Source of the DNA: Neckera pumila
Taxonomy: Eukaryota; Streptophyta; Bryopsida; Hypnales; Neckeraceae
NCBI GenBank assembly: GCA_963969595.1
Contig: OZ018409.1
Location: forward strand, 12,228,520 to 12,292,519
Direction: 5' to 3'
Length of the DNA: 64,000 bases
Position 1 is the stretch's first letter. Each line of letters begins with the position of its first letter. This document shows, piece by piece, positions 2,717 through 62,005 of the stretch. Under the pieces are notes generated by a model. It had not been told where the DNA came from. It was given only the letters and a program-made list of their open reading frames with translations, and made no database searches. The position numbers were made by a program, and so were the translations under genes.

Positions 2717-3358
2717 TTAACCCCTAAATGTCCGAGGCACCCAAATGTGGTGTTTGCAAAACTTTGAAGTTAAATAAAACCTTACCAAGTTGCTTTTTTT
2801 AGTAGGTTATATTCTTAGAAAGTTCTTCTTGAAGTTTAGTTTTAGCATCAAAAATCTGATCTTGAAAATAAATGATAGTGATTTTTCTATTTATGATTTT
2901 GTACAAGGGTACCTGGTGCAATCTTGACTTCCTGTAGTGTTGAGAGCTCTTGGAAATGAGCCTTGAATACACTAGATCTTGGAGGAAAATTTGCATTCAA
3001 AATTCATTTAAAAAAATATAAAGTAGATTTTAAAAAGCCATAAGTTGATTGGGGTTATACAAGTTAGGTCCTTTAACCTCATATTTTTTTGGTCACCAAT
3101 TTTTTAGATTTGAGTTGTGTAAAGAAGGTTGAAAGATTTTTGCAATTTTAGCACCCTCATGGTCAAACATTAATCTTTCACTCCATAAGTGATATTGTTG
3201 TGTTTCTTTTCCTAAGAGATCTCTAACATGTCCAGTTTGATTTAATACGGTTACAATTCAAAAAAAATTGATACAACTTATCAAAATGTTGGCATTTTGT
3301 TCAATTTAGAGCAAATTCCATGGAGCTGAAAATATGCCTTGGGGCATTTAGGGGTTAA
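2717..3358. mobile_element. TTAA-flanked inverted-repeat element, copy 1 (634 bp)
   Basis: TTAA at 2717-2720 and 3355-3358 brackets an element running 2721-3354. The left end is CCCCTAAATGTCCGAGGCA and the right end reads CCCCTAAATGCCCCAAGGCA on the other strand, an imperfect inverted repeat of about 20 bp. The interior is AT-rich with no coding potential, so this is non-autonomous. It is shorter than most family members and lacks their central CCAATGG motif. Confidence 0.7.
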
Positions 3359-3397
3359 ACTTCCATTTGTGTTGAGTTTTCTTTCCACAACAGTAAA

Positions 3398-3650
3398 ATG
3401 GAAGTTTACACAAGGTTAGCATGTTCTTCTCTTTCCTTATTTTGAAAGACATAGACATTTATACAATCTTCTTCTTCATTCTGCAACAATGATATGGTAG
3501 TTTCGCACAAGCATATTTCTTCTCTTTCCTTTATTGTGAAAGAAATGGAAGTTTTATAAAAGGGCACTCTTCGTCTACGGTACTTCTTTTTGAAAGAAAG
3601 AAATGGAAGTTTTATAAAAGCATATTCTTCTGTGGCAGAAGAACGAAAGA
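3398..3650 (+). repeat. Tandem repeat of about 60 bp, about four diverged units
   Basis: The phrase AAATGGAAGTTTTATAAAAG and its variants recur at about 3398, 3484, 3541 and 3600, each followed by TTCTTCT/CTTTCC-rich sequence. It lies between the NDUFS5-like gene and the phospholipase D gene. Confidence 0.65.
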
Positions 3651-4834
3651 GATATTCCATTCCTTACTTAGGTACTGTACACCGTTCAATACCATCAACG
3701 GCAACCGACGACCTTCAAAGCCAAAGCCTCTTCCCAACAGCGTCCCTCCGCTGCAGTCTCCTTCCACCTTGCCACTTGTCCCATTGTGGGTCGTCGTTTG
3801 CACGATGTATTGGGGCCTCCTGCTACGTTTGTCATCCGCATGTCCCATTTTCATGGCTATGGTTTGTAGTTGTTGTCACCCGCTTCAGGTTCTTCTCGCA
3901 GTCTAGTCGTAGGGCCTCATTCAAGCCCACCTGTTTCTTTTCTTATTACAGTCGGTGTCAACGCCAAATTTCGGGTATTGTCCTACTTGGATTATATTAA
4001 TTGGAGTTCGCGGGGACTAGTCACAGTCACGTCGTGTTTTTTGTTTGGAAGTTGACGTTTGGCTATGGAGCGCTCCGGTTAGAGCCTCTCAAGCTCTCCA
4101 CAGGGTCGGTATTATTTGGGTATGGATTCAACTCCCAATGGCGCACTGTGAGTTATTTTAGAAAGTCTAGAAATTGCTGCATTTTGGGTTAGTCTGATTC
4201 AAATCAGAGCATGCGGGTTTGGCTTCATCGTTAAAATGGCAAGAACGATGATACGTTCTCGAAAGAAGTGCCCTGTTTTTATTGCGTAAACTCTGCTTCT
4301 TGTTGAGACTATTCTTCAGTAGATTGACTGCGAGAGGGCATTATTGAAATATGGTTGCAATTTGGGGGGTGTTAGTCTTAAGTCAGCTGGAGTCAGGTCC
4401 ATTAGCTATGTTATAGGTTCAAATGGAATACATTTAGGGTCAATTGACATTGCACAGGGAGTAGCAACGAAACCCATTCATCTCTATTGGTGCGAAATTG
4501 TTTCTTTTTTGCTGTACCTCTTTTAGTTCAATATTGATTTTATACTAGTTCAAGCAACAAGAATGAGCGTGAGGTGATAGTGCTTACAACTAAGGTTCTC
4601 TAATTTACTTGAGATATCAAGATTTCAGGCTAACTCTTTGAGACGCATCAGACACTTGTTACCTCAAATGCGTCATAAGTGCAATGGATTCTTTCAAGCT
4701 TCTTATCTCACCCCTAGTTACAATATTGGATTGAATTATGAGCTAGTTGTTGCACCCTGTGCAATCTAAATTGTATTCATGTTGGTAATTTACCAGAGGA
4801 GTGATAGGCCTTATCTCAAGCAAAGGGAGCGGCG
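3651..4834. other. Region upstream of the phospholipase D gene
   Basis: Presumed promoter and leader of the gene starting at 4835. The first 400 bases are less AT-rich and have open frames on both strands, but none resembles a known protein. I cannot locate a TATA box or a transcription start; an untranslated exon is possible. Confidence 0.4.
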
Positions 4835-7800
4835 ATGGGGAACGGCTATGGCAAGTCCGTGAGGGAATGTTGTGCGTGTATCCCCACCCGGGAGAAGAAC
4901 AAACGGCTGCCCGGTCCTCCTGGAATCCCACCAGCGGAAGCTGCAACGCCTTCGCTCCTCCACGGCATTCTCGACATCACTCTCGATGAGGTCGACACCT
5001 CCGGACTGCCCAAACTGTTCAGGGTACGTTGAGAAGCCTCGACTGGAAACCCTATGCTCTTGACCTTCACAATTTTGAAAGTACACTCGAAACTGAGCTC
5101 GGGTGTAGCCAATTGAAGTTTTGTATCAAAAAGGTTGCATTAACTAAAAATTTATGAATGAAGGTTGGTGCTTCTTCTTGGTTATCTCTAGTCATTGATT
5201 GCAACTTTACCACGTTTTCATTGACCAGTGCAGTATCTGAGTATGACACCCATTGAGGGGAGGAATGTTGAGCGTCGTAAAATAAGGGGATAGAAGCGTA
5301 GATACAGATGAGCACTTATAAAAGCGAACTGGAACAATTGTTTGTCAATGCGGTATCTTTGCATCTGCAATTAGAAGGGACGTTATGCTTAGACTTGCTT
5401 TCTTTTTGGACAAGCGACTGAAATGATCATTAGGCTTTATACGATTCATTTCTCTAGGCTTTATAAAGTGCAAGAGTGATGCTGAAAAGGGCCACGATCT
5501 CCAGTATTCAAGATAGATCCTGATGATTCTTGTAGAAGCCTGAAGCCAAAAATTGCTCAAAAAGTGAAAGTAAGTAGTGGGTAACTCGAATTTGGATCTT
5601 ATGGTATTTGTTATCTTAACAGTATTTGTTCTATGACCAAGCTCCAAATTGGAGTGCCTTTAGCATAATCTCAATAAGGACACTACAATCTTGGGTGCTC
5701 TGATGGTGAAGAAAGCAGATCTTGGAACGCTGAGTGTTGGAATAGGAACTATAAAGAGTGGAGTGGCGATGGCATACCCAGCTCCTCTTCTGAACTGTCT
5801 ACCTTCCACCACTAGAAAAAAAGCTTTCCTAAAACCACTAGCCCACTAGTCCTTGTACAACGCTAAACATGTATCTTGTTTGTTTTCATAAGCACTACAG
5901 CCCTCCTGGAGACTACGTTTGCAAACATTGATATCTAATGCCACCCATGTTGGTGCAGATGGTGGACGACGTCGTAGGCGGCGTGATCGCCACCGTGGAG
6001 CTTCCCCCAGTGCGAGTAGCGCGCACGCGTCCTCTCAAGCGTTCCAAGTTGATGAAGTTCGAGGAGTCTTTCCGCATCTTCGTGGGCCACCACGTTGCCT
6101 CCATCAACACCTTCGTGTACTCCGGCGCCATCTATATGGGCACCGCCAAGATTCCCATCACGGACCAGCTCCTCGCGGGTGAAAGAATCGACGGATGGTA
6201 CGAGCTGGAGGGCGACCACGAGGGCATGGCCAAGTTCCACATCGTCTTACAGTTCAAACCAGCCGCGAGTGACAAGTACTGGGACGCAGGAGTTGCAGGT
6301 CAGTCTCCCGGTTCATTGAAATGCTTCGATTATTCCTTTCAATAGAATTTTCTATGAAGTGTAGCTTGGCAAGTTGCCAGATTGATTTCGAATTGGCATT
6401 TTGGGATCATGAACCAGCTCATGTGTAACTAGCTGCAACGTCAATATCTTTACATTGGCTGAAGTCCACGACTTTGGCTGTTTTCAGAGCATTGTGTAGA
6501 TGAATGTCGCGATTTTATGGTGACCTGAATCGCGCCAATTTAACCCCTAAGCGCTCCAAAGTCCATATTCTGGATGATGAACAGAGTGCTTCAGACATGA
6601 ACTAGCTCATGTGTAACTAGCGGCAACGTCAATATCGTTTCATTGTCTGAATTCCTCGACTGTGGCTATTTTCGGACCTTTGTGTAGATGAATGTCACAA
6701 TTCTATAGGTTCGCCAATCTAACGAAACTGACGATCGTGGTGGTTCATCTGTTGCAGGTGGTGCATTTGAGGGCGTTTCTCACACGCTCTTCCCCATGCG
6801 AAGAGGCTGCAAGGTGACTCCATATCAAAACTCCCACATCGACGAGACTTTCAACCCCAAGATCATGCTTGACAATGGCCAGTACTACACCCCGGAAAAA
6901 GGCTGGGAGTCCGTCTACCATGCTATGAACGATGCAAAGAAGTTCATCTACGTTGCAGCCTGGTCTGTCAACGCGACGATCTCTTTAATTAGAGACAAAG
7001 AAGGCAAGCCATTACCTGGCAACTTGGGGGAGACACTCGGGGAGCTTCTGGTACGCAAGGCGAATGAGGGCGTGACCGTGCTGATGTTGGTGTGGGATGA
7101 CAAATCGGATAACAATCATCTTCTCACTGGAGTCATGCACTCCCACGACGAAGACACGTTTCTGTATTTTAAAAACACGAAAGTGCACTGCTTGTTGTGT
7201 CCTCGCAATCCGCAGGCAAAGGAGTTCAAGCTTGTGTCAGGGTTCATTTTCACTCACCATCAGAAAGTGGTGTGCATGGACGCGCCAGCGTTGCAGTCCT
7301 CGCAACGAAGAGTGCTAGCGTTCCAAGGGGGTATAGATTTGTGTGACGGCCGGTATTGCTTCCCTGCACACCCTCTGTTCCAATACCTTGATACTTTGTT
7401 TAAAAATGATTTTCACCAGGGGAGCATTGTGGGAGCAACATTGGCAAATGGTGGACCTCGGGAGCCATGGCATGATTGCTACTCGAAGCTGGAAGGGGAG
7501 ATAGCGTGGGATGTGCATGAGAATTTCAGGCAGCGGTGGCTAAAACAAGCTGGAAAATTACGGGAGCATCTGCTGGTGGACATTAAGAATCGGGAGATTT
7601 TCACCCCTCCCACTCCTGTGACCACGGAGGACGATCCTGATACATGGCATGTGCAGCTGTTTCGCTCCTTTGATGAAACTTCGGGAGTGGATTTACCTCA
7701 GGGGCAGTTGGAGATTTTCAAAGCGGGCCTTGTCAGGCAAGCCGCTGGGAATGTCACCGAGAAGAGCATCCAGGATGCGAACATTACGGCCATTCGACGT

Positions 7801-9943
7801 GCCAAGCGGTTCCTGTACATCGAGAATCAGGTAACCATGTCATGAGTCTGATATGATCTTTGTGGATACAAAACTGGGCGGCATCATACGGTAGCATACT
7901 AAATCGTTTTATCAAATAATTCCTCAAGTGAAGATTAGGGTCCCACCAAAGCAGCAGTGAAAGGAATTACAAAAGTCCCTCTCCAATTATCAACTGCTTC
8001 GTTTAGTTCGAAACTTAATGCTGAAATGGCTTTGTTGTAGCGCCTTTTCAATGTTTTTAGTATGATTGGCACTATTTCATTTGATTCAAAGGTTGATTCT
8101 GAAAAGTTGGTAATCAGTGGGTAGGAACTTTGGATACATAATTGGCCAGGATCATTGCGTAATAATTGATTTTTAATAGATAATTCCACAAATGAAGCTT
8201 AGGGTCCCAGCAAAGCAGCTGTGATTATAGAACAAATCTAATTACAAAACTTCCACTGTTTCAGTATTGCTTCATTTGGTTGAAGGGCTAATGCTGAAAT
8301 ATAATGGCACGGTTTTAGTGCCATTTCAGTGAACATTCTTAGTATGACTGGCACCAGTTGCTTCAATTGATTGAGAGGTTATTCTGAAATAAACTGCTAG
8401 GTTATTGCTTCAGTTGATAATCAGTCTGGAGGAACTATGCTGACGATCCTTTCAAGACATATGAACATGATTTAATTGAATACAAGAATTATGTAATGGC
8501 AGTATTTCTTAGGAAGCTCCCACATGTGGGAGCCCGCCTTGCGTGACGAGTCAGCTGCACAGCTCATTCCTCTCGAGATCGCGCTCAAGATTGCGAGCAA
8601 GATTCGAGCCGGGGAAGAGTTTAGTGTGTACGTGGTGAACCCGCTGTGGCCGGACGGGGCGCCCACGAGCAAGTCGGGGCAGGACATCATGCTGTTTCAT
8701 CGGAAGACGCTGGAGATGATGTACGGGATCATCTACAAAGCGCTCCAGGAGACGGGCCGAGAGAACGAAGACATGACGGACTACCTCAGTTTCTTCTGCC
8801 TGGGGAATCGGGAAACCGTGAAGCCCAATGAGTATGTGCCGCAGGAGAAGCCCGATGCGGATACGGATTATCATAAGTCGCAACAGAGTCGGCGGTTCAT
8901 GATCTACTGCCACGCGAAGATCATGGTTGGTAAGTCGAAATTGCACTGGAACAAACCTTGTTTCATCTCTTCAGGGACGAACCGGTAATATGAATATGTG
9001 ATTTAGAGTTTAGATTTTTCCTGCTTCGTTGATTAGTGTGCTCCATAACATTAACATACTACAGTATGCCTGGGTCAATTCCTCACTTGAGAAGTGGAGA
9101 AGACAGATATGCTTCTGTAGTGTGTCCTAAACACTCGGCGTTTGTGAAGGACTTGTGAACTAATGAACCAATTCCAGGGTCTTTCATGTCCAGAAGATAA
9201 GGGTACCACTAGTCCCCAAAAGTAAGAGCAATGAGGAGAAGTTTCATTGCTTTTTCGACTACCCAGCTCAAACAGTAATATGAATTTCAGGATTCGGGTG
9301 TTTAGGGTTTAATTTTCCCTGCTTCTTTGATGAACTTGCTCACTCTATGGTAGTATGAATTCGGGTGTTTAGGATTTCGGGTTTCACTGCTGCTTTGATA
9401 AACACAAAGGTAGTATGAATTTGCGCTTCTTCGATTACCAGAAAGTTCAATGGAGAATTTGGCAGTGGAGATTGATTGTGGTGTCCCCTGCCTGCAGTGG
9501 ACGACGAGTACCTGATCATCGGGTCGGCCAACATCAACCAGCGCTCCATGGACGGCGGCCGCGACTCGGAGATGGCCATGGGCGCGTTCCAGCCGCACCA
9601 CACCAGTGCTCAATCCTCCGACGGTGTGCCCCGGGGCTCTGTGTACGGCTTCCGCGTCTCCACCTGGTTCGAGCACCTGGGCTACCAGGAAGAGGTTTTC
9701 GACAGACCCGGGACTCGCGACTGCATGAGGAGAGTGATCGCCCTCGCCAGCCGATACTGGGACGAGTACTCCCGCGAGGAGCCCGTGGTGGACATGCAGG
9801 GCCACTTGCTGAGATACCCGTATGTGATTTCAAAAGATGGAAGCAGCATCACGGCCTTGCCTGGGCACGAATTCTTCCCGGATTCCAATGGACCGGTGTT
9901 GGGCGCCAAACAGCCCACGTTTCCACGAATCCTGACGGTCTAA
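4835..9943 (+). CDS. Phospholipase D, C2 type, PLD-alpha-like; complete, five exons, 824 aa
   Basis: Hydrolyses membrane phospholipids to phosphatidic acid, a plant stress and lipid signal. Exons: 4835-5023, 5959-6298, 6758-7830, 8503-8929, 9498-9943. All introns are GT-AG, the phases fit, and the 824 codons match the family's usual 800 or so. A C2 domain spans roughly residues 40-160, opening with LLHGILDITLDEVD. HKD motif 1 is H344, K346, D351 (THHQKVVCMD) and is followed by GGIDLCDGRY. IENQYFLGSS crosses the exon 3/4 join. HKD motif 2 is H671, K673, D678 (HAKIMVVD), followed by GSANINQRSMDG, and spans the exon 4/5 join. RSMDGGRDSE and the C-terminal LPGHEFFPDSNGPVLGAK resemble the alpha class more than beta/delta. 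Odd points: an N-terminal MGNGYGKSVRECCACIP extension that could be lipidated, and EEF where alpha-type enzymes usually have ERF. The subclass is less sure than the family. Confidence 0.93.
6411..6740 (+). repeat. 188-bp direct duplication in phospholipase D intron 2
   Basis: GAACCAGCTCATGTGTAAC at 6411 recurs as GAACTAGCTCATGTGTAAC at 6599. Later shared blocks include GCAACGTCAATATC and TTTGTGTAGATGAATGTC. The first unit contains TTAACCCCTAAGCGCTCC at 6540, which looks like a single end of the TTAA-flanked family, though no partner end is present. Confidence 0.8.
7870..8440 (+). repeat. Two diverged direct repeats of about 270 bp filling phospholipase D intron 3
   Basis: Shared blocks include AGGGTCCCA(C/G)CAAAGCAGC at 7937 and 8201, and AGTATGA(T/C)TGGCAC near 8058 and 8340. 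The offset varies from 264 to 282, so indels have accumulated. The intron appears to have doubled in size by duplication. Confidence 0.7.
8982..9425 (+). repeat. Short repeated blocks in phospholipase D intron 4
   Basis: The phrase GGTA(A/G)TATGAAT, followed by GTGTTTAGG and CTGCTTC(T/G)TTGAT, occurs at about 8982, 9273, 9350 and 9410. The copies are imperfect. Confidence 0.55.
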
Positions 9944-25532: not shown

Positions 25533-26244
25533 AGAGTTCGTGACAGAAAATTTTGGCTTGTACTAAGTGAGTGCGATAAGATGCAGGCAATAGTAAACCG
25601 TAACAAGAGATGAGGATGCTCGTCTTTCATCTTGGGATTTTGGAAGCTCCTTTATGAACATTCTTAACCGTGTATAAAAAGGTTAATCATTGTGTGTTTC
25701 TCAGGCTGCTTGATTCTGTTTATTCGAATACCAAGCTAGTGGTTTCAAGTACTTCTGTAGCCATGCATGTTTCTTTTCAGATATGAATTTATGAATTTTC
25801 CTATTACACATTTGAGTTAATCCTAAAGAGGGAGGAAACTTGTCTGCAGTTGCAAGCTAATACTCAAGAATCTCACTTGGGAGTTACAATACCTTTTCCC
25901 ACATGCTGCATGTTTCGTTGTTGGAAGCAAAATTAGAGATGAGGAGCTCTGTTTAGGATCAAAAAGAATCCTTAGATTTTTGTTTTCGTGCTATTCTAAG
26001 GGAAAGAAGGTTAACTCTATAGTGAATAATCTCTTGGAGTGGATATGATTCAACGGGAACTTTTTCTCAAGAATATTAGATAGGTTGGTACTTCGAGTAT
26101 TGGTTAGCCTTAACCTTGTAAGGATGCTACGGACCAGAGTAATCCAATGGATGGCAAAGAATCCTTCTATGTAAGATAAAAGTGGAGATGTTCATCTTTA
26201 GATTTTTGTGCGAAAAGGGAAGGTCTTGTTCAATAGCTTGATCT
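25533..26244. other. 3' flank of the malic enzyme gene
   Basis: 3' UTR followed by AT-rich spacer. I see no further gene and no clear poly(A) signal. Confidence 0.45.
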
Positions 26245-27161
26245 TTAACTCCTAAAGTTCTTTGACTACATTCTCACCAAAAACGCTCTAAAATTGCCAT
26301 TTTTAGTACAAGTACCAAATTTTTGAAAAAAAGAAATTTTGACGCATGTAAATGTAGGATCTTGTAGTATGTTGACTTGAGAACATATAGAAAAATTTTC
26401 AGAAATTTCCACCGTGTGGATTGCAAGATATAAGCATTCAAATTTAATGAAATCATTTTTTTTCCCTACAAAAAATAGGGCAGCTACACTTCACAAGCTC
26501 ACTTTTCTCTGAAAAATTGTACAAAATGGTGGTGCTTCTTTGGATTCTTTTTCCTAGACAAGTTGGCCACATGCTTGAAAATTTTCACATCCTTTGGAAT
26601 TAAAAAATAACAAATGGACAATAGTAGAGAATGATTTAAAAGACTAATAGTGTTAAGAATTTAATTATGGAATTGAAAAATGCCAATTCCAATGGTTGCA
26701 ATGTTGTAATAAACAATCTACATCCTATGATTTTATTTTTTTCAAAAAATATTGAAAATCAAGTACGACAAAGGACTTCAAAGTTTATTGTTGAGTAGAG
26801 AAGCCATAATTGCCCGCAAACAAAAAAGCCTCAAAGCTTTTGACTCATTGATCAATATGAAATGATTCAAAGCTTTTCTTGTATATACAACTCTAGAAAA
26901 CCAATTTCAAATTTTTATTTTTGAAAAAAGTGATTTTTTTTTATTTGCTCGGACTGCCCGAGTTGAGAAACAAACTACCTATCATGCGATAACTTTTGAC
27001 TCATATTTTCAAATGTCATGAATTTCAGTGCATATGAAAGATATTCCTTGTCCCTACCTTCTATTAAAATTTGGGCCAAAAATATAGAATTTTCTAGTCA
27101 CACATATCTGCCCAAAATTTCTATATAGCCAAAAAACACATGCTGGTCCTTTACGGGTTAA
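26245..27161. mobile_element. TTAA-flanked inverted-repeat element, copy 2 (909 bp)
   Basis: TTAA at 26245-26248 and 27158-27161. The left end CTCCTAAAGTTCTTTGAC and the right end (read inward) CCCGTAAAGGACCAGCA share only the first bases. The interior has the central AATTCCAATGGTTGCAAT, a CTCGGACTGCCCGAG palindrome and CATAACTTTTGACTC, all shared with copy 4. No coding sequence. Confidence 0.75.
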
Positions 27162-28222: not shown

Positions 28223-29149
28223 TTAACCCCTAAAGTCCCAAGGCCATTTTTCTATCAAAAACCACTCAAAACTGTCATTTTGGCTGCGTTCATCCAAGAA
28301 CACAAAAAAAACATCTTTTTAGAATCTAAGTATGAGATCTTGTACTTCACTTGTCAAAGATCATGTGGTAAAAATTTCATGAAGTTTGACCGTATAGATT
28401 GGAAGATATTAGCATTCAAATTGAAAAAGAAAGTTTTTTTGAACACGGACCTGCAATTTTAGATGACTTTGACCACCATTTGTGGAAGTTTTTTGCTCTA
28501 AAAACTTTGAATTTAAAATTTTTTATGTTGAAGATGTAAGTTGCAAGTCTACAAAAAAAAATTCAAAAAAAAAACACATGATTTTCATTCTTTAAAAAAT
28601 TATTAAGTGGAAATAAGTCCGAAATTGAAAAAAACAACTAAATCGTTAGTAGCTCTTAGATGGAATTTAAATACAATTATCCCAATGGTGAGATTGTTTT
28701 AGCAAGCAAATACAACATTTTCAAAAAACAATTGTAAAAGTTGTGAAAATTGCATTCAAAAATGAATCCTATAAGTTATTTTTTCAAAAAGATGCTTAGA
28801 TTGCCTGAAAAACAAGATTGTCCATGACTTGCTCATTATTAGTCCAAATAAAATGAATCAAAGCTTCACATTTAGACAAAAATATAAAGTTTTAGAGAAA
28901 AAAAATTAAAATTTATTTTGACTTTTTGCAAAAAAATTTGTGCTGCCCGCCAAGTTCAGTTTGAGGCTTTCTGTGGTATAACTTTTGCTCCCATGCACCA
29001 ATTGAAATAAAAATTATATTTCCACAAAGCTAATCAATTTTTCTATCTTATGGAAAAGTTTCAAAAAGTTTCACAAAAAATTGAGCCCGTAGGTACCTGC
29101 CCAAAATCTGATTTGTCCCCCAAGGGGACAATGGGACTTTAGGGGTTAA
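28223..29149. mobile_element. TTAA-flanked inverted-repeat element, copy 3 (919 bp)
   Basis: TTAA at 28223-28226 and 29146-29149. Ends are CCCCTAAAGTCCCAAGGCC and (inward from the right) CCCCTAAAGTCCCATTGTCC. The central motif is ATCCCAATGGTGAGATTG; GTGCTGCCCGCC and TGCCCAAAATC lie towards the right end. A 127-codon open frame (28079-28462) runs in from outside and is not a gene. Confidence 0.8.
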
Positions 29150-29660
29150 TAGGACCAAGATCAGTGTCATTTTGGCACTATTTATTTTTACAATTTTTGT
29201 AGTAAATTTTTTTTTTTCAAACTTAGTTCCACTTTTAAGTGTAAATAGGGAATCAAAATTAAGTCTTATAGCATACTGAATGTAAACAAGGGAGTATATG
29301 ACAAATAGACTTAGAAATATTCTTTAAAAAGATAGAAAGAGGCTTAAATTTAAAATATTGATAGTCCATTCTAAAGATTCTAAAGAATACAACTAATTGT
29401 TCTAGGAAGATAAATAGTCTTCTTTCTTGATTTACAATTAGCACATAATATGAACTTCTAATAGAATATAGAAGTATGTGACTCAAGTTGTCATAGAGAT
29501 ATTTTTCAATGTAAATATCAATTATGAAAATAGATAAAAGAATTATTTATTTATATTTGTTATTGTTGTGCCACCATGTAGGTGTGCATTTAGCTGTAAA
29601 GTTTGAGAGATCATAGTACTATAAGTCACTTAGCTAGAGTGCACTTGAGACCATTGATCT
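29150..29660. other. AT-rich spacer
   Basis: Nothing recognisable. Confidence 0.35.
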
Positions 29661-29889
29661 TAAATGCCACATTTAACTATTTTTGGACTTTTGAAGAGTC
29701 CAAAATTAATATCTTGGAGAAGAAACATCAAGAGATAATCATTGAAAGATCGTGGAAAACATCTTGAGATTTGTACATCTAGCGATTTATACAAACATTT
29801 GGAGATCTCCGGATGCTATTGTCTAGAGATTTTTGAATGTTTTGTCTAGAATTTAGTTGAAAGTCCAGAAATAGTTAAATGTGGCATTT
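29661..29889. mobile_element. Small inverted-repeat element (229 bp, 29-bp arms)
   Basis: AAATGCCACATTTAACTATT and the following GGACTTT at the left are the near-perfect reverse complement of 29861-29889. The interior repeats a GAGAT(T/C)TTTG-type phrase. Too small to code; MITE-like. No target duplication could be assigned. Confidence 0.6.
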
Positions 29890-30156
29890 GACAATTAAGG
29901 CGATTAATTGCCAAATTGAAGATGAAGGATATTTATAAAGAATTAGAAGTATCAAATGTTTACGTAGAGTTGGAAGATGTAAAGTAGATAGTGAATCCAA
30001 AATTTGCATTGTTAGGTAACAAATACTTGTTTTTTTATACCATTATAAAATGATACCATTTACAATTTCAATTCTCATTTTCATTAGTACCTATTATAAT
30101 CTTTCTGACCTTAATGTAACCTTAGTTGCTTTAACAATAATCATGTTTGACCTTTT

Positions 30157-38690: not shown

Positions 38691-39619
38691 TTAACCCCTA
38701 AAGGACCAACATGCGTTTTTTGGCAACATAGAAATTTTGGGCAGGTACGTGTGACTAGAGATTTGCATGTTTTGGGCTGAAATTTTTACAAAAGGTGGGG
38801 ACAAGGAATATCTTTCACATGCACCAAATTTCATGACATTTGAAAATACGAGTCAAAAGTTATGGCCTGATATGTTACTTTTTTGTAACCGGGCAGTCCG
38901 GGCAGATAAAAAAAATCACTTTTATCAAAAATAAAAATTTTAAATTGATTTATTAGATTTACATATACGTGAAAAGCTTTGAATCATTCCATTTTGATCA
39001 ATGAGTCAAACATTACGAGGATTTTTAGTTTGCGGGCAGTTATGGATTATCTACTCTAAAATAAACTTTGAAGCCGTTTATTTCACTCAATTTTCAATAT
39101 TTAAAAAAACAAACAAACTATAGGATGTAGATTGTTTATTACAAAATTGCAACCATTGGGATTGGCATTTTTCAATTCCATAATTAACTTCTCAACAATC
39201 TAGTGTTTTGAACCATTTTCTACTTCTTTCTACTTACTATTTTTTTCTTATATGTTGTACAATTCCAAATAATCTGAAAATTTTCAAGCATGTAGCCAAC
39301 TTGCTCTAAAGAATGAATCCAAAGAAGCACAACCAATTTAGAATTTTTTTCATAATAATCTGACCTTGTGAAGTGCAGCTGCCCAATTTTTTGCAGGGCC
39401 CAAAAAAGGACTTTTGCCACTTCAAATGCTAGTATCTTCCAATCTACACGATGGAAATTTCTGAAATTTTTTCCACACATTCCCAAACCAGATTACTACA
39501 AGATCCTACAATTACATGTGCTTAAAAATGATATTTTTCAAAAATTTGGTACTTGTGCTAGAAATGGCAATTTTCGAGCATTTTTAGTGAGAACATAGTC
39601 AAGGAACTCTAGGGGTTAA
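38691..39619. mobile_element. TTAA-flanked inverted-repeat element, copy 4 (921 bp)
   Basis: TTAA at 38691-38694 and 39616-39619. Left end CCCCTAAAGGACCAACATG; right end (inward) CCCCTAGAGTTCCTTGAC. The same two end types occur in reverse order in copy 2. The interior has CCGGGCAGTCCGGGCAG, GAGTCAAAAGTTATGGCC and the central AACCATTGGGATTGG. It abuts the hAT remnant, so it probably inserted into it. Confidence 0.8.
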
Positions 39620-41090: not shown

Positions 41091-41961
41091 GAGCATCAAG
41101 CTACAATGTTCAAGCTTGGAGCCCAAAACATGTATGGACACTAGCTTGATGTCCATATAGAGCCTTTGGCATTTAACCCTTTAGTGACCGTGGTTGATTT
41201 TGGAGGCGAGTCATTTTTTCAATATATACTTTTAAAAAGTTATTTTGGGATGGGCTTTGAGCCAAATCAATACAATCGGACCATAGAAATTGAGGCTACA
41301 AGGCCTTGGCAATGTATTGCCACAAGAATGAAGGGGATCAAAGCTTTCATGTAGACATGAGAATGGTTCAAAGATTGAAATGAGAATTGAATCTACTACA
41401 ATTAAGCAAAAAGTGTCTGTAAAGTAGGTGGCTCAAAATTCTCTCACACTCTAAAATACTCCACTCCTCAAATATACATTGTTTGTAAATGTTGGTTTTC
41501 CATCTTCACAAGAATTTACATTTTTTGTACATTTTGTGGTTTTTAAACCTCTGCCGTTTCAACTTCAAAAATTCATAACTAAGTCCATAAAGTTCCAAAA
41601 AATATGAAATAACTTGGATTAGATGCCAATTCTATTTGTTTTTCAAGGATATTTAATGAAATATAATTCAAAATTTCTTACCTCCCCAAAATTCAATTTC
41701 AACTCTTCAATGGGTAGTTTTTGGCCCTCCTACCTTAGCTAATCCATATACATCCTTGGATTTCATGGATTAGACGGTAGTGGGCTTGCCAAGCAACATT
41801 GTTGCCTTCATGGCTTGTGTATTTTGATAAAAATTTGCCTAGATTGAAGCTTATTTGTACATTTCCTTGGTTAGCACAGATTCATTCAAACTAAAGTAGC
41901 TCACACATTATTGCTTGCCCTATCAAACAATTCTATTTAAAGTGAGCATCTAAAGATGCTC
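41091..41961. mobile_element. Possible element with GAGCATC inverted ends (871 bp)
   Basis: TTAGAGCATC at the left and GATGCTCTAA at the right are exact inverses. A second GAGCATC lies just inside the right end. Short, so chance is possible. No target duplication and no coding sequence. Confidence 0.4.
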
Positions 41962-43039
41962 TAACTCCGTTCCTCTTTGAGTTTTTACAAATTAGGTATA
42001 TTTTGACCTACAACAAGCATAGAGTCCATAAATCGACCAAAATATGGTCAACCGGTCAGTATAGGGTTAACCTTGAAATCATATCTTGGTACTCCTAACT
42101 TTCATTTCTACTAGTGTTAGAGATCCTTGCACCTAATAAAATTCACAAACTTTTACATATATATATATATATATATATGCGCATGTATATCTTTTTTGTG
42201 TTTGTTAGAATTATTTAGATCATTGCTACTAAACATACTTTTTTGAAAATTCTACTATTCAAAATAAGGGTTGCTATTCTATGAGCGTGCGAGCGTGAGC
42301 TTGTGAGCCTGTGAGCTTGTGAGTATACAATTTTTTAGAGAAAATTCTATGGTGGAACCTATGACCGTGGACATTATATCATTCAAGATTTGGGATTGAA
42401 AGACTGAAATAATCAATTCATTTTGTCAATAAATGGAAAGCAGAGATGTCTTCTACTACCGACATTCTTCCAAACCATGCTTGGTGCTTCTGGAAACCAA
42501 CGTCTATAGTTAGGAGCCTTCATCCACCATAGAAGAGACTGCAACAAGTTGTTTAGAAGACTAGACATAGAAGACACAAAGCTAATTTTTTCGCAATCTC
42601 TATAGGATATTTTTAATGGTGCAGTTGTTGATAGGCTCATCAGCATTGTTGTCTGAACCATTAGCATTTGTCCTCTGAAACATTTCATTTCTACCATAGA
42701 GCAATTGTTTAGTGGCATGGGACTTAAGTTTCACAAATTTTTTTGTAGAAAAATTGATTTAGATCAAATTTGAAAAAGGAAAAAAAATAATTAAGGTCCA
42801 AGTGGTTGATGTATTTAATAACATTTGCTTACTACATAACATGCAAATGTATAATTGTCAATAAGATTAGAAAATTTAAAGCTAGTTCCACGCTAAATTG
42901 TAATTATGGGCCTTATTTCACAAGAATAGCTAGAGTACAATCAAGTTGCAAGTCTAAAGTTTTAATAAAAAATCTTGAATACACAAATAAGTCTTCAAAA
43001 TCATCATGATTTAACTAAATTATAATTCTATTCTTTTTT

Positions 43040-47612: not shown

Positions 47613-48155
47613 TTAACCCCTAAAGGACCAAGGCCTTTTTTCTGCCAAAGAACTCTCAAAACTGCCATTTTTAGAGCAAAGAATAAAAAAATCTGAAAAT
47701 TGTTTTTTTTGCACATCCAATTGTTAGATCTTATATCTAACTGGTATGACAATGTGTGGAAAAAAATTCAGAATTTCTGACCGCACAAATTGCAAGATAT
47801 CTGCGTTCAAAGTGAAAAAAACAAGATTTTCAGCACATTGCGGGACTAGATTTTTTGACTTTGAACATTTTTAACTTAAATTTTTTGCACTACAGAGTTT
47901 TGAGCTTTAAATCTTACTAGTGGAAAATTGAGCTGAGAGTCTAGGAAAAAAAAAGAAATTCAAAAAAACTTAATTTTCATTCTTAAAAAAATTGTTAAGT
48001 AGAAGATAGTACAAGATAGAGAAGAAAATCTAAAAAATTTATATCTTTTAGATAGAATTAAACTACACTAATTCCAATGGTGAGATCTTTCTAGCATGAA
48101 AAATAAACTATGTGGAAATTTTTTTTGAAAAATTACAAAAATTGCATTCCAAAAT
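47613..48155. mobile_element. TTAA-flanked element, copy 5, truncated
   Basis: Left TTAA at 47613-47616 then CCCCTAAAGGACCAAGGCC. The first 540 bp closely match the minus strand of copy 8 (right end inward). The match stops near GCATTCCAAAATG at about 48150, where other repeat DNA follows, and no right end is found. Confidence 0.75.
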
Positions 48156-48279
48156 GTGGGCTAGAGATTGCCAGCCAAGGGTAATGGTCTACGTTTTTCA
48201 CTAGTGCTTGGGAATAAATGCATCACAAAACTCACTAGTGTAGATATCTTCAGCAACTATGTCTCCAAATCTTCAACTC

Positions 48280-51516: not shown

Positions 51517-51990
51517 TTAACTCCTAAAGGACCAGCTTGCTATTTTTAGCAACATAGCAATTTTGGGCAGGTACGTGTGACTAGAGATTTTCATCTTTTA
51601 AGCTGAAATTTTAATAGAAGGTGGGGACGAGGAGTATCTTTTGTGTGCACTAAATTTCATGAAATTTCAAAATAGGAGTCAAAAGTTATAGCCTAATATG
51701 TTATTAATTTCACCGGGCGGGCAGTTCGGGCAAATCTGAAAAAATCACCTTTTTCAAAAATAAAAATTTGAAATTGATTTTCTAGAGTTATATGTAAGTG
51801 GAAAGCTTTAAATCATCCATTACGACCAATGAGTAAAAAGTTATGAGATTTTTTAGTTTGCGGGCAGTTACGGATTTTCTACTCTAAAATAAACTTTGAA
51901 GTTGTTTATTTAACTCAATTTTTAATATTTTTTGAAAAAAAAAATCATAGGATTTAGGTTGTTTATTACAACATTACAACCATTGGGATT
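51517..51990. mobile_element. TTAA-flanked element, copy 6, truncated at the central motif
   Basis: TTAA at 51517-51520, then CTCCTAAAGGACCAGC. It closely follows the left half of copy 4 (GGGCAGGTACGTGTGACTAG, CGGGCGGGCAGTTCGGGC) and stops just after CAACCATTGGGATTG. The right half is missing. Confidence 0.7.
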
Positions 51991-52254
51991 GAATCCTTAG
52001 TTTTGATGTTCATGTTTTCTCTGCTGAATCCTATACTTGGTTAGACTGATGCACTCTGCAACTATCCGACAATCTCATGGTCAATTGTTGCATGTGTACC
52101 GCTGTAGTAGAAGGGCAGCAAGAAGACTTATCTGGCAAAGTGTAAACTGGGCCTTATATTTAGCTTCAAGACTATTACGAAACAAGATCTCAATGTGAAT
52201 AGGAGGTACCGGCACTTCAAGGGAAAGGAGAAACCGTTGGGCTAAAATTTGTTG

Positions 52255-53625: not shown

Positions 53626-54551
53626 TTAACCCCTAAAGGACCATTGTCCCTTTGGGGGACAAATGGAATTTCGGGCAGGTACCTACAGGCTGAGTTTTTG
53701 TTGTGATTTTTTGGAACTTTTTTTGGAGATAGAAAAACTCATAAGCTTCGTGGGAATATTATTTTTTTTCAATTGGTGCCCAGAAAACTAAAGTTATGCC
53801 CAAGTAAGCTCAAAACAGGGGAGAGCGGGCAGCAAAAAAATTTTGCAAAAAATTTAATTAAATTTTTTTTTTTCCCTTATAGATTATATTTTTTTCTACT
53901 TGGAAAGCTTTGATTCGTTTCATTTGGATTTTTTATGAGAAAGTTATGGACAATCTTGTTTTTCAGGCAATTAGAGCATCTTCTTGAAAAAAATAACTTG
54001 TAGAATTCATTTTGGAATGCAATTTTTGTAAATTTTCAAAAAAAAAATTTCCACATGGTTTAATTTTTGTGCTAGAACAATCTCACCATTGGGATTAGTA
54101 CATTTTACTTCCATCTAAAAGATATTAATATTTTAGATTTTCCTTCTATCTTGTACCTACTTCTACTTAACAATTTTTTTAAGAATGAAAAGTAAGTTTT
54201 TTTGAATTTCTTTTTTTTTCCTAGACTCTCAACTCAATTCTCCACTATAAAGATTTAAAGCTCAAAACTTTGGAGTGCAAAAAATTTAAGTTAAAAATGT
54301 TCAAAGTAAAAAAATCTAGTCCCGCAATGTGCTAAAAATTTGTTTATTTCACTTCAAATGCAGATATCTTGCAATCTGTGCAATCAAAAAATTTGAAATT
54401 TTTTCCACACATTCTTATACTAGTTAGGTATAAGACCCTACAGTTAGATGTGCAAAAAGAACAATTTTTAAAATTTTTTACTCTTTGCTCTAAAAATGAT
54501 AGTTCTGAGAGTTTTTTGGCAGAAAAAAGGCCTTGGTCCTTTAGGGGTTAA
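53626..54551. mobile_element. TTAA-flanked inverted-repeat element, copy 8 (918 bp)
   Basis: TTAA at 53626-53629 and 54548-54551. Left end CCCCTAAAGGACCATTGTCC; right end inward CCCCTAAAGGACCAAGGCC. Central CTCACCATTGGGATTAG. The half near the right end is the closest relative of copy 5 in the window. Confidence 0.8.
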
Positions 54552-55026: not shown

Positions 55027-55075
55027 TTATTTATTTATTTATTTATTTATTTTTTTTTTATTTTTTTTTTCATTT
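54984..55075. repeat. (AT)n followed by (ATTT)n microsatellite
   Basis: Pure AT at 54984-55021, then about eight ATTT units and poly(T). The open frame 54899-55156 is low-complexity translation of this tract. Confidence 0.9.
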
Positions 55076-56732
55076 ATTATTTTCATTTTTTTTATTCGCA
55101 AATTTTGGTTCCTGTGCCACTGTCACAACAAAAACTGCTATGTAGAAATAGGATAAAAAACCATTTTTCAACCCCCCAAAACACAATTTTAGGATCCTCC
55201 GGAGGATTGTGGAGCACCCCTCCAAAGCCCTGCAATTTTCTCTAATGCTAGTAATCCAAACTTCAAATGGACTAGTGTGGCCCTGTGCCGTTGGCCCAAT
55301 TTTCATCCACTTCTAGTTCCACTCCCGGTTCCACTCCCAGTAGCAAGAACGCCACCAAAATCAAAGTAAAAGTAATTTTCTAATTTTTTAATCAATAAAT
55401 ACTTTGAAATTCAATAACTTTTGCACCACCGCTCCAAACGCCACGAAACCAAGCCCGTGCACCCCTCCTCGCCGAGCCCTTTCCGATGGTACCAAGCACG
55501 CAGCCGGGGGATGCACGGTCCGGGAGATCTCAACGTAACAAACAAAACAAACAAACAAAACAAACAAACAAACAAACAGCCAAATTTAAGGTATAGATTA
55601 AGGTGTTTTTTCTAAAATGTTAAAAGACAATACTTCACCTTTTGGAAGGTCTAGAAAAGCTTACATTTCAAAGATTAGGCACATTGAACTTGCAATTGGA
55701 AGAGATAATTGTTCTAAAATTTTGGGATAGTGTACTAAAACAAATGAATCAAAGGATCCTATGGTTGAATTTGTTAAAAACTAAATATTAATGAAGATTT
55801 TGACCTTGCTTTGGAGACGAGTACTTTGAAGCACTTTTAGGCCTCTAACCGTGGTAGTCCTTTAGGGGTTAATGGGTTATGTATTGAGCATAAAGGGAGA
55901 TGACGTGACCATTTGTGCAATCAAGTTGTGAATTCAATTGTCTGACAAATGGCATTCTGTGAAAAAGAAATTGAGCACATGTCAAAATTAATTAGATTAA
56001 TTTTGAAGATGCGAGTCCAATTTCCTCTCCTAGGAAGTATTTGACCAATGGGGGCCGGACCTACTCATTGGCAACGATTGTGTCAATTACGGGCACACTT
56101 TTCTTATTGCAGTTTCAAAAACTTGAATTATTCTTTACTACACTATCCTTCTAGGTAGGCCATGTATTAATTGTTAAACAACATTCACTTGCCCTCTAGG
56201 TAGGGCATGTGTTAATCCTTAAACAACATTTGTTTGCCCATGTCCAAAAAGAAATAAAAAAATCTTCCTTGAAGCACAATATGGGTCTTATTGCTTGTCC
56301 AAAGTTTGTGCAATTAGGACATGCAAAAGTGAATAGTGAATTATGCTTTGACCAAGCAACCTAAATACGGTGCTTGGCAAGCCAAATTCACTACCATAGT
56401 GAATTTAGTAGGCTGAAACATTGTAAGAAAATTACAAAAAATCCATTTTTTGTCAACAGTTCTTTGAAAACCAAACACAAGGAGCTTCGCTTGCTGTTTA
56501 ACCCTGTAACCGCTACCACGGACACTAAGCGTCCAATGAATGACAAAGAATCTTTACATGTAGGACAGAAGTGTGATTGTTCATCTTTGGAATTTCGTGC
56601 AAAAAGGGAAGGCCTTGCACAGTAGATTGACCTCAAATGAGTGCTTTTGGTGTTTTTAGAGTAGATGATGCACACTCTATCAAAAAGGATGATTTCCATG
56701 GAAACTAGCTTCTCCTTACAGGGTTTTATTAG
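55076..56732. other. Spacer with a solo TTAA-family end
   Basis: A GC-richer patch at about 55420-55540 is followed by (AAAC/AAACA)n. TAGTCCTTTAGGGG then TTAA at 55855-55872 is a right end of the TTAA-flanked family without a recognised left end. No gene. Confidence 0.4.
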
Positions 56733-56860
56733 AGCAGCCCCACAGCAACACACTGAAGCAACACTTCAAATGATTTGCACCATTGATCTTAGAAGATCTT
56801 AGAAGATCAATGATGCAAAACGTTTAGAGAATCATTTCAACGTGTTGCAGTGGGGCTGCT
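56733..56860. mobile_element. MITE-like palindrome (128 bp)
   Basis: AGCAGCCCCACAGCAACAC at the left is the near-inverse of the right end. The match continues imperfectly to the centre, where ATTGATCTTAGAAGATC forms the turn. TCCTTAC sits outside both arms, so the true ends may be longer, with a short insertion in the left arm. No coding. Confidence 0.65.
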
Positions 56861-57636: not shown

Positions 57637-58534
57637 TTAACCCCTAAATCCCCAAGGCATTTTCTGGCTCCCAAACCACTGAAAATTGCCATTCCTGTTG
57701 CAATCATTCAAGAAACTAAAAAAAACTTTTTTTTTATTACCTAACTATAGGATCTTGTACTTGACTTGTCTTAGATCATGTGGTAAAAATTTCATGAAGT
57801 TTGACCGTACGGATTGGAAGATATTAGCATTTGAAGTTAGAAAGAGAAGTTTTTTGAATTGTGACCTGCAATTTCATATGACCTTGACGGCCATTTGTGG
57901 GGTTTTTTTGCACTACATACCATAAAGTTGAACATTTTAGTTGAGAGTTGGGTAAAAAAATTTCAAAATGTCAAAACTTGATTTTCACATAAAAAAAAAT
58001 TGTTAGGTAGAAGTAGGTCCAAAATTGAACAAAACACTAAATTGTTAATAGCTCTTAGGTGGAATTAATATATCATAATCCCAATGGTGGGATTGTTCTT
58101 GCAAACAAACTTAACCTTTTCCAAAAAAGTAATTGAAAAAAATTGAAAATTGCATTCAAAAATAAATTCTATAAAAAAAAAATTTACTACGCTTAGACTG
58201 CCCAAAAAACAAGATTGTCCATAACTTTCTCGTTCTAAGTCCAAATAGAATAAATCAAAGCTTCAAAAGTAGACAAAAACATGATCTTTGAGGGGCAAAA
58301 AATCAATTTTTTAAAGGTTTTTTTTTCTGCCCGGCAAAGTGCTTTCTTGACTTTAGGCGGCATAACTTTTGCTCCTGGGCACCAATTGAAAAAAAAATTA
58401 TATTCTTAGAAAGCTAATGTGATTCCCTATCTTCAAAAAAAGTTTCAAAAAATTTGGTCAAAATTTCAGGTCACACAAGCCTGCCCAAAATCCCAAGTGT
58501 CTCCCCAAGGGGACTTTGGGGATTTAGGGGTTAA
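57637..58534. mobile_element. TTAA-flanked inverted-repeat element, copy 7 (890 bp)
   Basis: TTAA at 57637-57640 and 58531-58534. Ends CCCCTAAATCCCCAAGGCA and (inward) CCCCTAAATCCCCAAAGTCC. Central ATCCCAATGGTGGGATTG. It shares TTCATGAAGTTTGACCGTA and GATTGGAAGATATTAGCATT with copy 3, so these two are sister copies. Confidence 0.8.
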
Positions 58535-59729
58535 TCCTAGAAAGATATTGGAGTCCTTTAGACAAATTTTTTTTTATATTAGTTGACACATCCTCAATGA
58601 TCAGAGGAATGGTTGAGATGTTATTGGAGATTAAACTATAGTAGGAGGTCCATAAACCATCCCTTTAAGTGTACCTACTTCATCAATGACAATCCTAGAT
58701 ATTTCAAGGAAAATGTCACTCATTCCTAGATAGGGTCGCATTAAAAACCTAGTTGATTTATGGACTTTCTACCTTCCCCATAACAAAGTCTTTAGTCGTA
58801 GTAGATTCTGAGTCACTATTGTGATTATTATTGTCACTATAGAAATTTTGGAAGATGTGACTAACTCCTATTATATTGTTCACAAATAACAAACTATATA
58901 TTGAAGCTTGTCTTTGTACCTCCAAGGTTTCAACAAGAGCCTAGCAATCACTACATCCATGCCGGGAGTTAATAACACAACCTAACAAACTCTTTAATTA
59001 TTCATATGTTTCTTTTAGGGCCATTACTATTGTTCTCAGATTCAAAGACTTCAAGTACATGAAACTTTGCCAATTTTGCCCACGCTTGGGTATGATCACC
59101 GTCCACGAACTTCAGCGCAAAAATTGGGAATCTACAGAAGATAGTGGACGGTGACCACATCTGAACATCAAAAGGTCACGTATACAGCATTCAATTTAGG
59201 CAAAATCAAATCTATGAGGCCTCAATGTTCCACTTGCACTTGCCATAAGTTAACACACAACATATACCTTATATTCCATTAAAATAGTCACACATACAGT
59301 GTAAGAAAATGTTCTGATTGCAACATAGTCCCAAGCGCCGTGCCCATCAGTACAGTCTGCAATAATAATTGTCGAACTACAGTCTTCACAGTTTGCTGCA
59401 GTATCCTGCAACGCATGTGTGAAACCTAGTAACCCTTGTTCCAAAAGTGGCAATAGACAGCAGTATCAAGTAATCAAACCCAAGCAGACTGGGAACCTTG
59501 GTCAAATAATAGTAAGAGCATCTCCACCCATGTGACAAATTCCACCATATTAAGTGGTAGGCCACAATTAGATGTTTTTTTGCCACGTCAGATTGCTGCT
59601 GCAGTGAAGTTTTCATAGTTCAAGAACTTGGGGGAACTCACGGTCCTTTACAACTCCGAAATCTCATCTAAGGATTTGTTTAGAATGTGGGTTAATTTAG
59701 TTTTCCAACCCATTTTATATATCATTATA
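58535..59729. other. Spacer with a small hairpin
   Basis: No gene recognised. TCACCGTCCAC (59095-59105) and GTGGACGGTGA (59143-59153) form an 11-bp inverted repeat with a 37-nt loop. Confidence 0.35.
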
Positions 59730-59959
59730 TTAACTCCAGAAGGACAGATTGGTCATTGTGGAAATCATCATTTTTGGTACCGTGTGAATCATTTGCTTCA
59801 AAAAAATTCAAGAGCACTCATTGGAGGTCAAACTAATGTGCAAAAACCTCTCCTTTTCACATAAAATTTAAAGATTGAACATCAGTACTTCTGTCTTATA
59901 GGGAAGGATTATTTGGATCATCCATTAAACACTTTTTGTCCATGTCCTTATGAGGTTAA
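59730..59959. mobile_element. Degenerate short TTAA-flanked element (222 bp)
   Basis: TTAA at 59730-59733 and 59956-59959. Left end CTCCAGAAGGAC; right end inward CCTCATAAGGAC. It fits the family ends with substitutions. Too small to judge further. Confidence 0.4.
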
Positions 59960-60187
59960 CCTTTAAATGACAACGTCATTTTTGAAAGCTTGTTTTTTTA
60001 AAGAATCTTTAGGAAAACCTCTTGAATTTTCAACTATATGTGAACTTTTTGATATCATTCTCTTTGTCTTCACAAGATACATCTATCAATCTAAGTCTTT
60101 GAGTTTTGAATCACAATTTGAAATTTTAGTTATGCATTGAAAAGTTTGAAAAAAGATTTAACAATAGCTTTGAGGTTGCCCATGGCC

Positions 60188-60772
60188 TTAACCCCTAAAG
60201 TCCCATTGCTCCTATGGGGGCTAAAATGGATTTTGGGTAGGTTCCTATGAGCTCAATTTTTGGTGAAACTTTTTGAAATTTTTCCATAAGATGGGAAAAC
60301 TTATTAGCTTTCTAGGAATGTAATTTTTGTTTCAATCGATGCTTGGGAGCAAAAGTTATGCTACAATAACTTCAAAACGGGGGAGCCTGGGCAGCAAAAA
60401 AAGATCCATAAAAATTTGAAATAAATTTTTAAATTATTTTTTTCTAATAGATTATATTTTTGTCTAAATAGGAAGCCTTGATTCATTCCATTTGGATTAG
60501 TGATGTGAAAGTTATAGAATTTCTTGTTTTTTGGGCAATCAAAGCATCTTATTGAAAAAAACTTTTTCTTTCACTTTGAATGTTGATATCTTTCAATCCA
60601 TACAATCAAACATCACAAATTTTTTACCACATGATCTGAAAAAGGTGTAGTATAAGATCTTGCGGTTAGATTCTAAAAAAAGTATTTCTTTTACTTCTTG
60701 GATGAATGCAACAAAAGTAGCAGTTCTGAGTGATTTTTAACAGAAAAATGGCCTTGGGACTTTAGGGGTTAA
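60188..60772. mobile_element. TTAA-flanked inverted-repeat element, copy 9 (577 bp, internally deleted)
   Basis: TTAA at 60188-60191 and 60769-60772. Ends CCCCTAAAGTCCCATTGCTCC and (inward) CCCCTAAAGTCCCAAGGCC, the same pair as copy 3 in reverse. The central CCAATGG segment is missing; the outer parts match copies 3 and 7. Confidence 0.8.
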
Positions 60773-61254
60773 GGAGGGGGACCAAGTTCATCATTGATTG
60801 GTCATTTGAACAAGCTACATAATACCCATATAAAAAAGGTTTTGAAATTCAAGTTTTGGCAACCTTCCTAGGACCCGTCAATGCCCTTTTAAGGGTTAAT
60901 CCCTAATAAGCTTTCACATCTAGACAACTGTAATTATCTTTAAAACTCCTCTTTATATACAATGCAAATTTTATTTTTTTTGTTGTTGATTTATTTATTA
61001 GACCTTTTAGATAACTTGATGAAGTATATTCTCTTTAAAATTTTAATTAGAAAGACTTCTCCAACTTCAAGATCATAATATTTGAACTTCTTAAAACAAA
61101 TTTTAGCAATCTTTACCACGGGTCAATTTAATCTTTCAAAAATTTTAGAGAAAAATGTACATATTCTACAATTTGAGCAAGTTCATAATATATTGGAGAT
61201 TTGAGTTGAAAATCTATAAGAAAAAATTTAACAAAATAAAAATTGGTTCTCACT

Positions 61255-62005
61255 TGAACCCCTAAAGGACCAAGCTGCATTTTTTTGGCAATATAGCAAT
61301 TTTGGGTAGCCCACTACGGATGGAGTTTTTATTTTTTTTCTTTGAAAATTTTACACAACATGTGTTCAAGAAGTAGCTTCAAGGCCCAACAATTTTTGTA
61401 ACTTTTGACTACATAGTTAAAAAGTTATTGCATGATATGTGATTTTCTATGAACTTTGGGCAGCCTGGGCAGCTCAAAAACTTTCTTTAAAAATGACTTT
61501 TAAAAAAACTAAAAACTTGAATTTGGTTCTTTGGATTTTGATATACATGGAAAACTTTGAATCATTCAATATCAATCTATAAGTTAAAAATTGATGAGGA
61601 TTTTAAGTTTGAGGGTAGTTATGGTTTTCAAAGACTCCATAACTACCCTCAAACTTAAAATCCTCATAACTTTTGAATCATAGATTGAAATTGAATGATT
61701 CAAGGTTTTCCATGTATATCAAAATCTAAAGAACCAAATTCAAGTTTTTATTTTTTTTTTAAAGTCATTTTTAAAGAAAGTTTTTGAGCTGCCCGGGTTG
61801 CCCAAAGTTTAAAAAAAATCACATGTCATGCTATAAATTTTTGTCTATGTAGTCAAAAGTTACAAAAATTGTTGGGCCTTAAAGCTACTCCTCGGGCACA
61901 TGCTATGTGAAATTTTCAAAGAAAAAAAATAAAAACTCCATTTGTAGTGGGCTGCTCAAAATCGCTATGTTGCCAAAAAACGTAGCTTGGTCCTTTAGGG
62001 GTTAA
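61255..62005. mobile_element. TTAA-flanked foldback element, copy 10 (743 bp, 366-bp arms)
   Basis: The element is 61259-62001, flanked by TGAA at the left (probably a mutated TTAA) and TTAA at the right. Left arm 61259-61624 and right arm 61637-62001 are near-perfect inverse copies around a 12-nt loop. Both ends read CCCCTAAAGGACCAAGCT. The transcript of either strand would form one long hairpin. Confidence 0.85.

Follow-up and report, generated by a model that had tools for sequence, protein, structure and literature searches.

The question raised by this locus is whether the TTAA-flanked elements that crowd a 64-kb stretch of the Neckera pumila genome (C2:12228520-12292519, hereafter the window) belong to piggyBac, a superfamily familiar chiefly from animals and from its use in genome engineering. 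The original prediction, made from the letters of the window, had read them as piggyBac-like miniature inverted-repeat transposable elements (MITEs) in a plant, served by a transposase encoded elsewhere. We searched the window and the genome (339,505,838 bases in 18 contigs), and we hold it as close to certain that the window TTAA elements are non-autonomous members of piggyBac families in the same land-plant genome. Four observations carry this reading: the genome encodes transposases homologous to piggyBac, their genes lie between the same ends, the target duplication is 4 bp, and one MITE subfamily of the window, A, shares its ends with the gene-bearing transposons.

Transposase genes and the transposons that carry them

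A genome search for DDE_Tnp_1_7 (PF13843), proposed as a check by the original prediction, gave 872 first-look candidates and, from these, 116 scored matches (best expect value, E, 4.6e-80), which are spread over contigs C1 to C11. By our own count the matched part is free of stops in 35 of the 116, and many others hold stops. The transposase is located outside the window, as had been supposed; tblastn with 15 host domains found none inside it (best E 0.014, 35 amino acids). The 20 best matches were taken as 10-kb stretches (L012 and so on) and searched for an end pair, defined as TTAA-[C/T]CC around the gene with at most three mismatches in 14 bases. Such a pair surrounded the gene in 14 of the 20 stretches, six of them with zero mismatches, and 30 shuffled sets of the same stretches gave 0 pairs in 29 sets and 1 in the other.

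MITE ends abound nearby, so single pairs may be wrong and multi-copy families are safer. Ten of the 14 end-paired transposons group into three families. Family 1 (L012, L013, L014) is 5.62 kb long with the terminal inverted repeat (TIR) CCCCTAAAGTCCC and copies 98.8-99.2% identical. Family 2 (L020, L024, L030) measures 7.2-7.3 kb, has the TIR CCCCTAAAGGACC and is 95.7-99.4% identical. Family 3 (L018, L019, L022, L028) measures 5.36 kb at 98.8-98.9% identity, with C/TCCCTTGGGGACT at one end and C/TCCCTTGAGGACT at the other. Long open frames were found in several copies of the three families. Both CCCCTAAAGTCCC and CCCCTAAAGGACC are TTAA-flanked in these transposons and are the TIRs of the window, which supports the piggyBac-like interpretation.

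Adjoining elements were also seen with a single TTAA between them, the right end GGGG being followed by TTAA and the next left end CCC (L018:2044, L022:2060, L029:2476, L028:7533, and window 60888-60903). The TTAA of the older copy seems to have been reused as a target in these pairs.

The encoded protein P0240 (L012:3962-5875, 638 amino acids) matched PF13843 with E 4.9e-81, and its only solved-structure relatives were Trichoplusia ni piggyBac (8.4e-36) and piggyBat (5.6e-24). The DDD triad (D291, D382, and D500), which aligns to the T. ni residues, is invariant in ten proteins, two of them animal. C598, C601, C615, C624, and H634 of the cysteine-rich tail are invariant in the same ten. A cruder motif script failed to pick up the triad words in several of the 15 domains. 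A protein search returned 152 relatives; among the 120 listed, the first 74 share 36-68% identity, and three carry organism names, all animals (Diadema setosum, Scyliorhinus torazame, and Rotaria).

A quick tree of 51 rows was built from the 15 stop-free host domains of the 20 stretches and 36 sequences chosen from the 120 listed. With midpoint rooting, the host sequences grouped with 22 database sequences without organism label (Shimodaira-Hasegawa-like approximate likelihood-ratio support 99). The host transposases form seven clusters and the host label needs at least five changes on the tree, a sequence pattern that favours long residence and diversification in the host rather than one recent arrival.

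The MITEs could be piggyBac-derived while elements and genes are dead relics and piggyBac no longer moves. The 65-89% identity among the window copies and the stops in many transposase matches fit such a state, whereas copies within the transposon families are 96-99% identical and several keep long open frames. We therefore consider this explanation unlikely, though it deserves real weight.

Window elements and their shared ends

The end sequence TTAACCCCTAAA or its reverse complement has 14 exact occurrences in the window (7 + 7). Allowing at most two mismatches raised the count to 33, against 9.56 ± 3.28 in 100 shuffles (maximum 21). A blind scan of the window for inverted ends of 12 bp with the same 4-mer on either side, controlled by five Markov shuffles, gave 11 TTAA pairs against 0, 1, 0, 1, and 0 in the shuffles. 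Two of these 11 join ends of different copies, and three more look spurious; other flanking 4-mers also score in the scan, such as AAAA (11), TTTT (10), and AATT (8). Most full copies fall into two subfamilies, A and B. The features of the window are as follows.

2721..3354, no strand assigned: MITE, TTAA at either end, TIR CCCCTAAATG; interior not shared with the other copies, no window relative
26249..27157, + strand: subfamily B MITE, 909 bp, flanked by TTAA left and right; 80% to 38695-39615 along its length
28227..29145, + strand: subfamily A MITE, 919 bp, TIR CCCCTAAAGTCCCA, TTAA on both sides; matches both ends of transposon T013
38695..39615, - strand: subfamily B MITE, 921 bp, recognised by ends and window similarity
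41177..42066, no strand assigned: probable further TTAA element, 890 bp, ends CCCTTTAGTGACCG / CCCTATACTGACCG
47617..48156, + strand: truncated subfamily A copy, 89% to the 54547-54009 region of copy 53630
51521..51991, + strand: half copy of subfamily B, 83% to copy 38695
53630..54547, - strand: subfamily A MITE, 918 bp, TIR CCCCTAAAGGACCA; family with 12,286 first-look candidates
57641..58530, + strand: subfamily A MITE, 890 bp, TIR CCCCTAAATCCCCA, recognised by ends and similarity
60192..60768, - strand: subfamily A MITE, 577 bp, internally deleted, recognised by ends and similarity
60900..62538, + strand: old A-like MITE flanked by TTAA and split by the nested 61259-62001; 50-54% to full A copies
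61259..62001, no strand assigned: foldback MITE, 743 bp, one B-type end twice, inverted; flanks TGAA left, TTAA right
5932..9943, + strand: phospholipase D (PLD) gene, PLD_C at 9476-9943 (E 3.8e-22)

Eight of the nine paired copies listed in the original prediction stand: for seven (26249, 28227, 38695, 53630, 57641, 60192, and 61259) both the ends and the resemblance to other copies support this, and for 2721-3354 only the ends do. The ninth, 59734-59955, proved to be a chance match and was ruled out as a TTAA element. Nothing is inserted there, because its paralogue 56517-56698 aligns through and beyond the putative ends and a second paralogue, 26146-26244, aligns across most of it. The three regions are copies of a single sequence that have diverged, and this sequence is no TTAA element. 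Five copies had been described as 890-921 bp long, and they measured 909, 919, 921, 918, and 890 bp; the one substituted TTAA flank reported was found as TGAA on the left of 61259. Of the truncated copies, the subfamily A fragment 47617-48156 and the subfamily B half copy 51521-51991 are real; the lone ends 10861 and 55868, beside which there is no family sequence, stay unsupported. Two elements had been missed, namely the probable element 41177-42066 and the nested-into 60900-62538. The latter is 892 bp long minus the nested 61259 copy and one 4-mer.

The stretch 29677-29874 was rejected as a TTAA element and belongs to another kind of foldback, because its inverted repeat continues past the TTAA; the short foldback as a whole lies at 29660-29890. 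A scan of IMG/VR for the 18-mer end returned 3 single matches, near the estimated chance number.

The window copies were then compared with the ten transposons of the three families at a match threshold of E 1e-3. The family 1 TIR is identical to that of copies 28227 and 60192, and the family 2 TIR to that of copy 53630. Subfamily A copies align to both transposon ends at 67-80%: copy 28227 matches T013 over 1-309 (70%) and 828-919 (75%), and copy 53630 matches T020 over 1-95 (78%) and 718-918 (70%). A TIR shared by MITE and autonomous element was thus found for A with families 1 and 2, and not for the interior of B, 2721, 61259, or 41177. The rejected 59734 and the lone ends gave no match at this threshold. 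By these alignments, subfamily A is a deletion derivative of an older relative of families 1 and 2.

TIR positions 9-13 vary among copies 28227, 53630, 57641, and 60192 (GTCCC, GGACC, and TCCCC). Both ends of one copy agree at these positions, as if the ends of a lineage had changed together, whereas in subfamily B the two ends of a copy disagree there.

The genome-wide numbers count first-look candidates rather than confirmed copies, and scoring was limited to the best of them. In the 53630 family, the best 40 of the candidates were nearly full length, the 39 others than the query at 89-91%. Ten copies are star-like, with 90-93% pairwise identity and 94-96% to the column majority, a pattern as after one burst. 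TTAA stands on both sides in eight of these ten (query included), and L039 has TTAT and TTAA. Another member, in L034 (1490-1501 and its right end), has GTAA on both sides and is perhaps a true insertion at GTAA.

The oddest feature is the wide spread of the 743-bp foldback, which has two like ends and is 88.8% self-complementary. It has 7,126 candidates, possibly including B copies; the best 40 scored places span nearly all 743 bp on both strands, the others than the query at 86-90%.

An origin of the MITEs in another TTAA superfamily, with the piggyBac genes coincidental, was judged on the termini and the shared ends. Sola3 uses a TTAA target. Papers are cited here by PMC number and from the portions of their text available to us; according to PMC9587614, Kolobok also makes TTAA duplications, and it differs from the elements here in its transposase and in its termini, 5'-RR and YY-3'. 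Here the termini are 5'-YY..RR-3' with tips CCCC..GGGG, so that the Kolobok pattern was not found. The tips and the subterminal sequence of subfamily A match piggyBac-encoding elements at both ends. A Kolobok or Sola3 origin is strongly disfavoured for subfamily A, and for the MITEs as a whole it is very improbable.

Target duplication, host and mechanism

Empty sites could be read because several transposons sit inside MITEs that have uninterrupted relatives. When the flanks were joined with one TTAA kept, 28 alignments crossed the junctions of T012 (7), T013 (16), T028 (4), and T019 (1). The relative reads exactly TTAA in 11 of the 28, and variants such as TTTA, TTCA, and CTTA in the others. 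The size of the duplication was controlled by varying the number of dropped bases and counting ungapped junctions among the crossing alignments. With 4 bases dropped, 59 of 65 were ungapped. The other drops gave 0/63 (0 bp), 0/63 (1), 0/64 (2), 1/65 (3), 4/66 (5), 0/63 (6), and 0/63 (8). The 65 alignments represent six insertions compared with many related MITEs, not 65 events. The control was given seven insertions, namely six of the eight elements with crossing relatives and the 61259 copy of the window; L022 1131-7422 had one short alignment and L035 two gapped ones, and both were left out. L013 1709-8550 is itself a MITE containing T013, and an exact TTAA is absent from the site in all of its relatives; L029 1553-9294 was treated as a single block and seems to consist of a MITE followed in tandem with a transposon. 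The target duplication is therefore 4 bp, TTAA. The original prediction had pointed to empty sites with TA only as the contrary outcome, and these did not occur.

The same control bears on TA-duplicating (Tc1/mariner) or TWA-duplicating (PIF/Harbinger) elements at sites that happen to read TTAA. Both are common plant MITE classes (PMC10004981), and TTAA includes TA as well as TAA. However, the 2-bp duplication of Tc1/mariner (Stowaway) and the 3-bp duplication of PIF/Harbinger (Tourist) correspond to the 0/64 and 1/65 ungapped junctions, against 59/65 for 4 bp. This alternative is refuted for the six insertions tested and is scarcely credible overall.

The host is a land plant, in agreement with the original prediction, as the PLD and LEAFY genes show; on this evidence it is probably a moss. 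The joined PLD exons share 48% identity with Marchantia paleacea, 47% with Riccia fluitans, and 44% with Calypogeia fissa, all liverworts, and 43-46% with lycophyte and angiosperm proteins; two further proteins are closer (78% and 61%). LEAFY was found on C4 (PF01698, E 1.5e-27), and its DNA-binding part reads YLFDLYEQC. The D of this motif is residue 312, a position that is H in Arabidopsis and D in mosses. LEAFY is placed in streptophytes, and its type II is found mainly in mosses, as the sole type in Bryopsida, and in one liverwort (PMC6588583). Four weaker LEAFY SAM-domain matches were noted at C9:12668600, C1:34326170, C7:13959528, and C2:29575086. Contamination of the assembly by animal DNA is hardly believable: all three organism-labelled relatives among the 120 listed are animals, but the transposase genes are found on large contigs, C1 to C11, of which C2 has the PLD gene and C4 LEAFY, and transposons are inserted into MITEs of the same families as those in the window.

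As members of piggyBac families, the elements would move as follows. Autonomous copies, 5.4 to 7.3 kb long, carry the gene for a DDE_Tnp_1_7 transposase that has both the DDD triad and the cysteine-rich tail. By analogy with T. ni, this enzyme would bind the CCC ends and excise the element through TTAA hairpins, and insertion at another TTAA would double that tetranucleotide. Subfamily A lacks the gene but retains, from the autonomous elements, the tips and some 50 to 300 bp of the sequence next to them, and would therefore move in trans. The window MITEs were probably moved by these transposases (cross-mobilisation). A palindrome, TTGTCCCCTCGGGGGACAA or close to it, lies at bp 15-33 of one end in families 1 and 2 and in copies 28227 and 53630; family 3 has CGAGGACACAATGTGTCCTCG at bp 15-35 of one end. 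In shuffled ends it was rare for family 2, family 3, and 28227 (0 to 1 of 300). The tail may bind this predicted site near one end.

Several results weigh against the piggyBac reading. Six of the 20 stretches lacked an acceptable end pair: L015, L023, L026, and L031 had none at all, L021 had one with 6 mismatches, and L027 one with 9. TTAA was imposed as a search condition for the end pairs, so that its presence beside them is not independent evidence; the empty sites are independent. The insertion of 61259 had no crossing relative in the duplication-size control, and its nested alignment runs with one or both 4-mers (poly-A, 50-54% identity). Subfamily B matches the transposons weakly and in one subterminal region only (58-190 bp, 68-74%), and 2721, 61259, 41177, and the half copy 51521 match none of the ten transposons at E 1e-3. 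For family 1 or 53630 alone the palindrome does not stand out from shuffles (0.14), and it is absent from the ends of B, 2721, and the foldback. No transposition was observed, and the elements are presumed rather than seen to be active at present. Subfamily B, 2721-3354, and the foldback would belong to piggyBac on the strength of their ends and TTAA only.

Comparison with known systems

PiggyBac has been named in plants before. A Ceratopteris repeat annotation counts 1230 PiggyBac fragments with 122,417 bases (PMC6890710), a review list of angiosperm MITE superfamilies includes PiggyBac (PMC10004981), and a survey names it for every group studied (PMC4438587). Our literature search on land-plant piggyBac found only such annotation counts and a review list in the available text. 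No title or abstract reporting a bryophyte piggyBac was found in it, a weak absence with most subscription papers outside the search; the candidate PMC10619864 holds, in its available portion, only the word piggybacking. The plant annotations share the superfamily name and the plant host with the elements here; unlike here, a transposase gene, ends, and empty sites are not presented together in the portions available. These three are brought together here in one land-plant genome. With families whose copies are 99% identical and have open frames, natural piggyBac enzymes of plants can be tested directly, and so can seamless excision at TTAA in plants.

A wider proposal, to which we give somewhat less than even weight, is that an old and diversified clade of piggyBac lives in bryophytes and has shaped this genome with thousands of MITEs, and that the 743-bp family with two like ends was spread by transposition. 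If this is true, plant enzymes need no end asymmetry of the kind held typical of piggyBac.

Among known enzymes, piggyBat (PDB 9c0f, E 5.6e-24) is homologous and more distant by score, compared here by its transposase only. The closest comparison is T. ni piggyBac (IFP2; PDB 6x67/6x68, E 8.4e-36), which has the same triad positions, the 4-bp TTAA duplication, the CCC tips, and the cysteine-rich tail. The palindromic repeat bound by a tail dimer of the T. ni enzyme occupies bp 17-33 of an end (PMC7351741), and the end palindrome here lies at about bp 15-33. Unlike T. ni piggyBac, the elements here have a land-plant host, a different tip after CCC, and a greater length (5.4-7.3 kb), and their palindrome is on one end only, against a repeat in both ends there (PMC7351741). 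The native T. ni enzyme integrates only with asymmetric ends: RE63/RE63 was excised and not integrated, and LE35/LE35 was neither (PMC7351741). Here, in contrast, a family with two like ends has been amplified, and its wide spread offers a natural case in which to test why the two ends of piggyBac differ.

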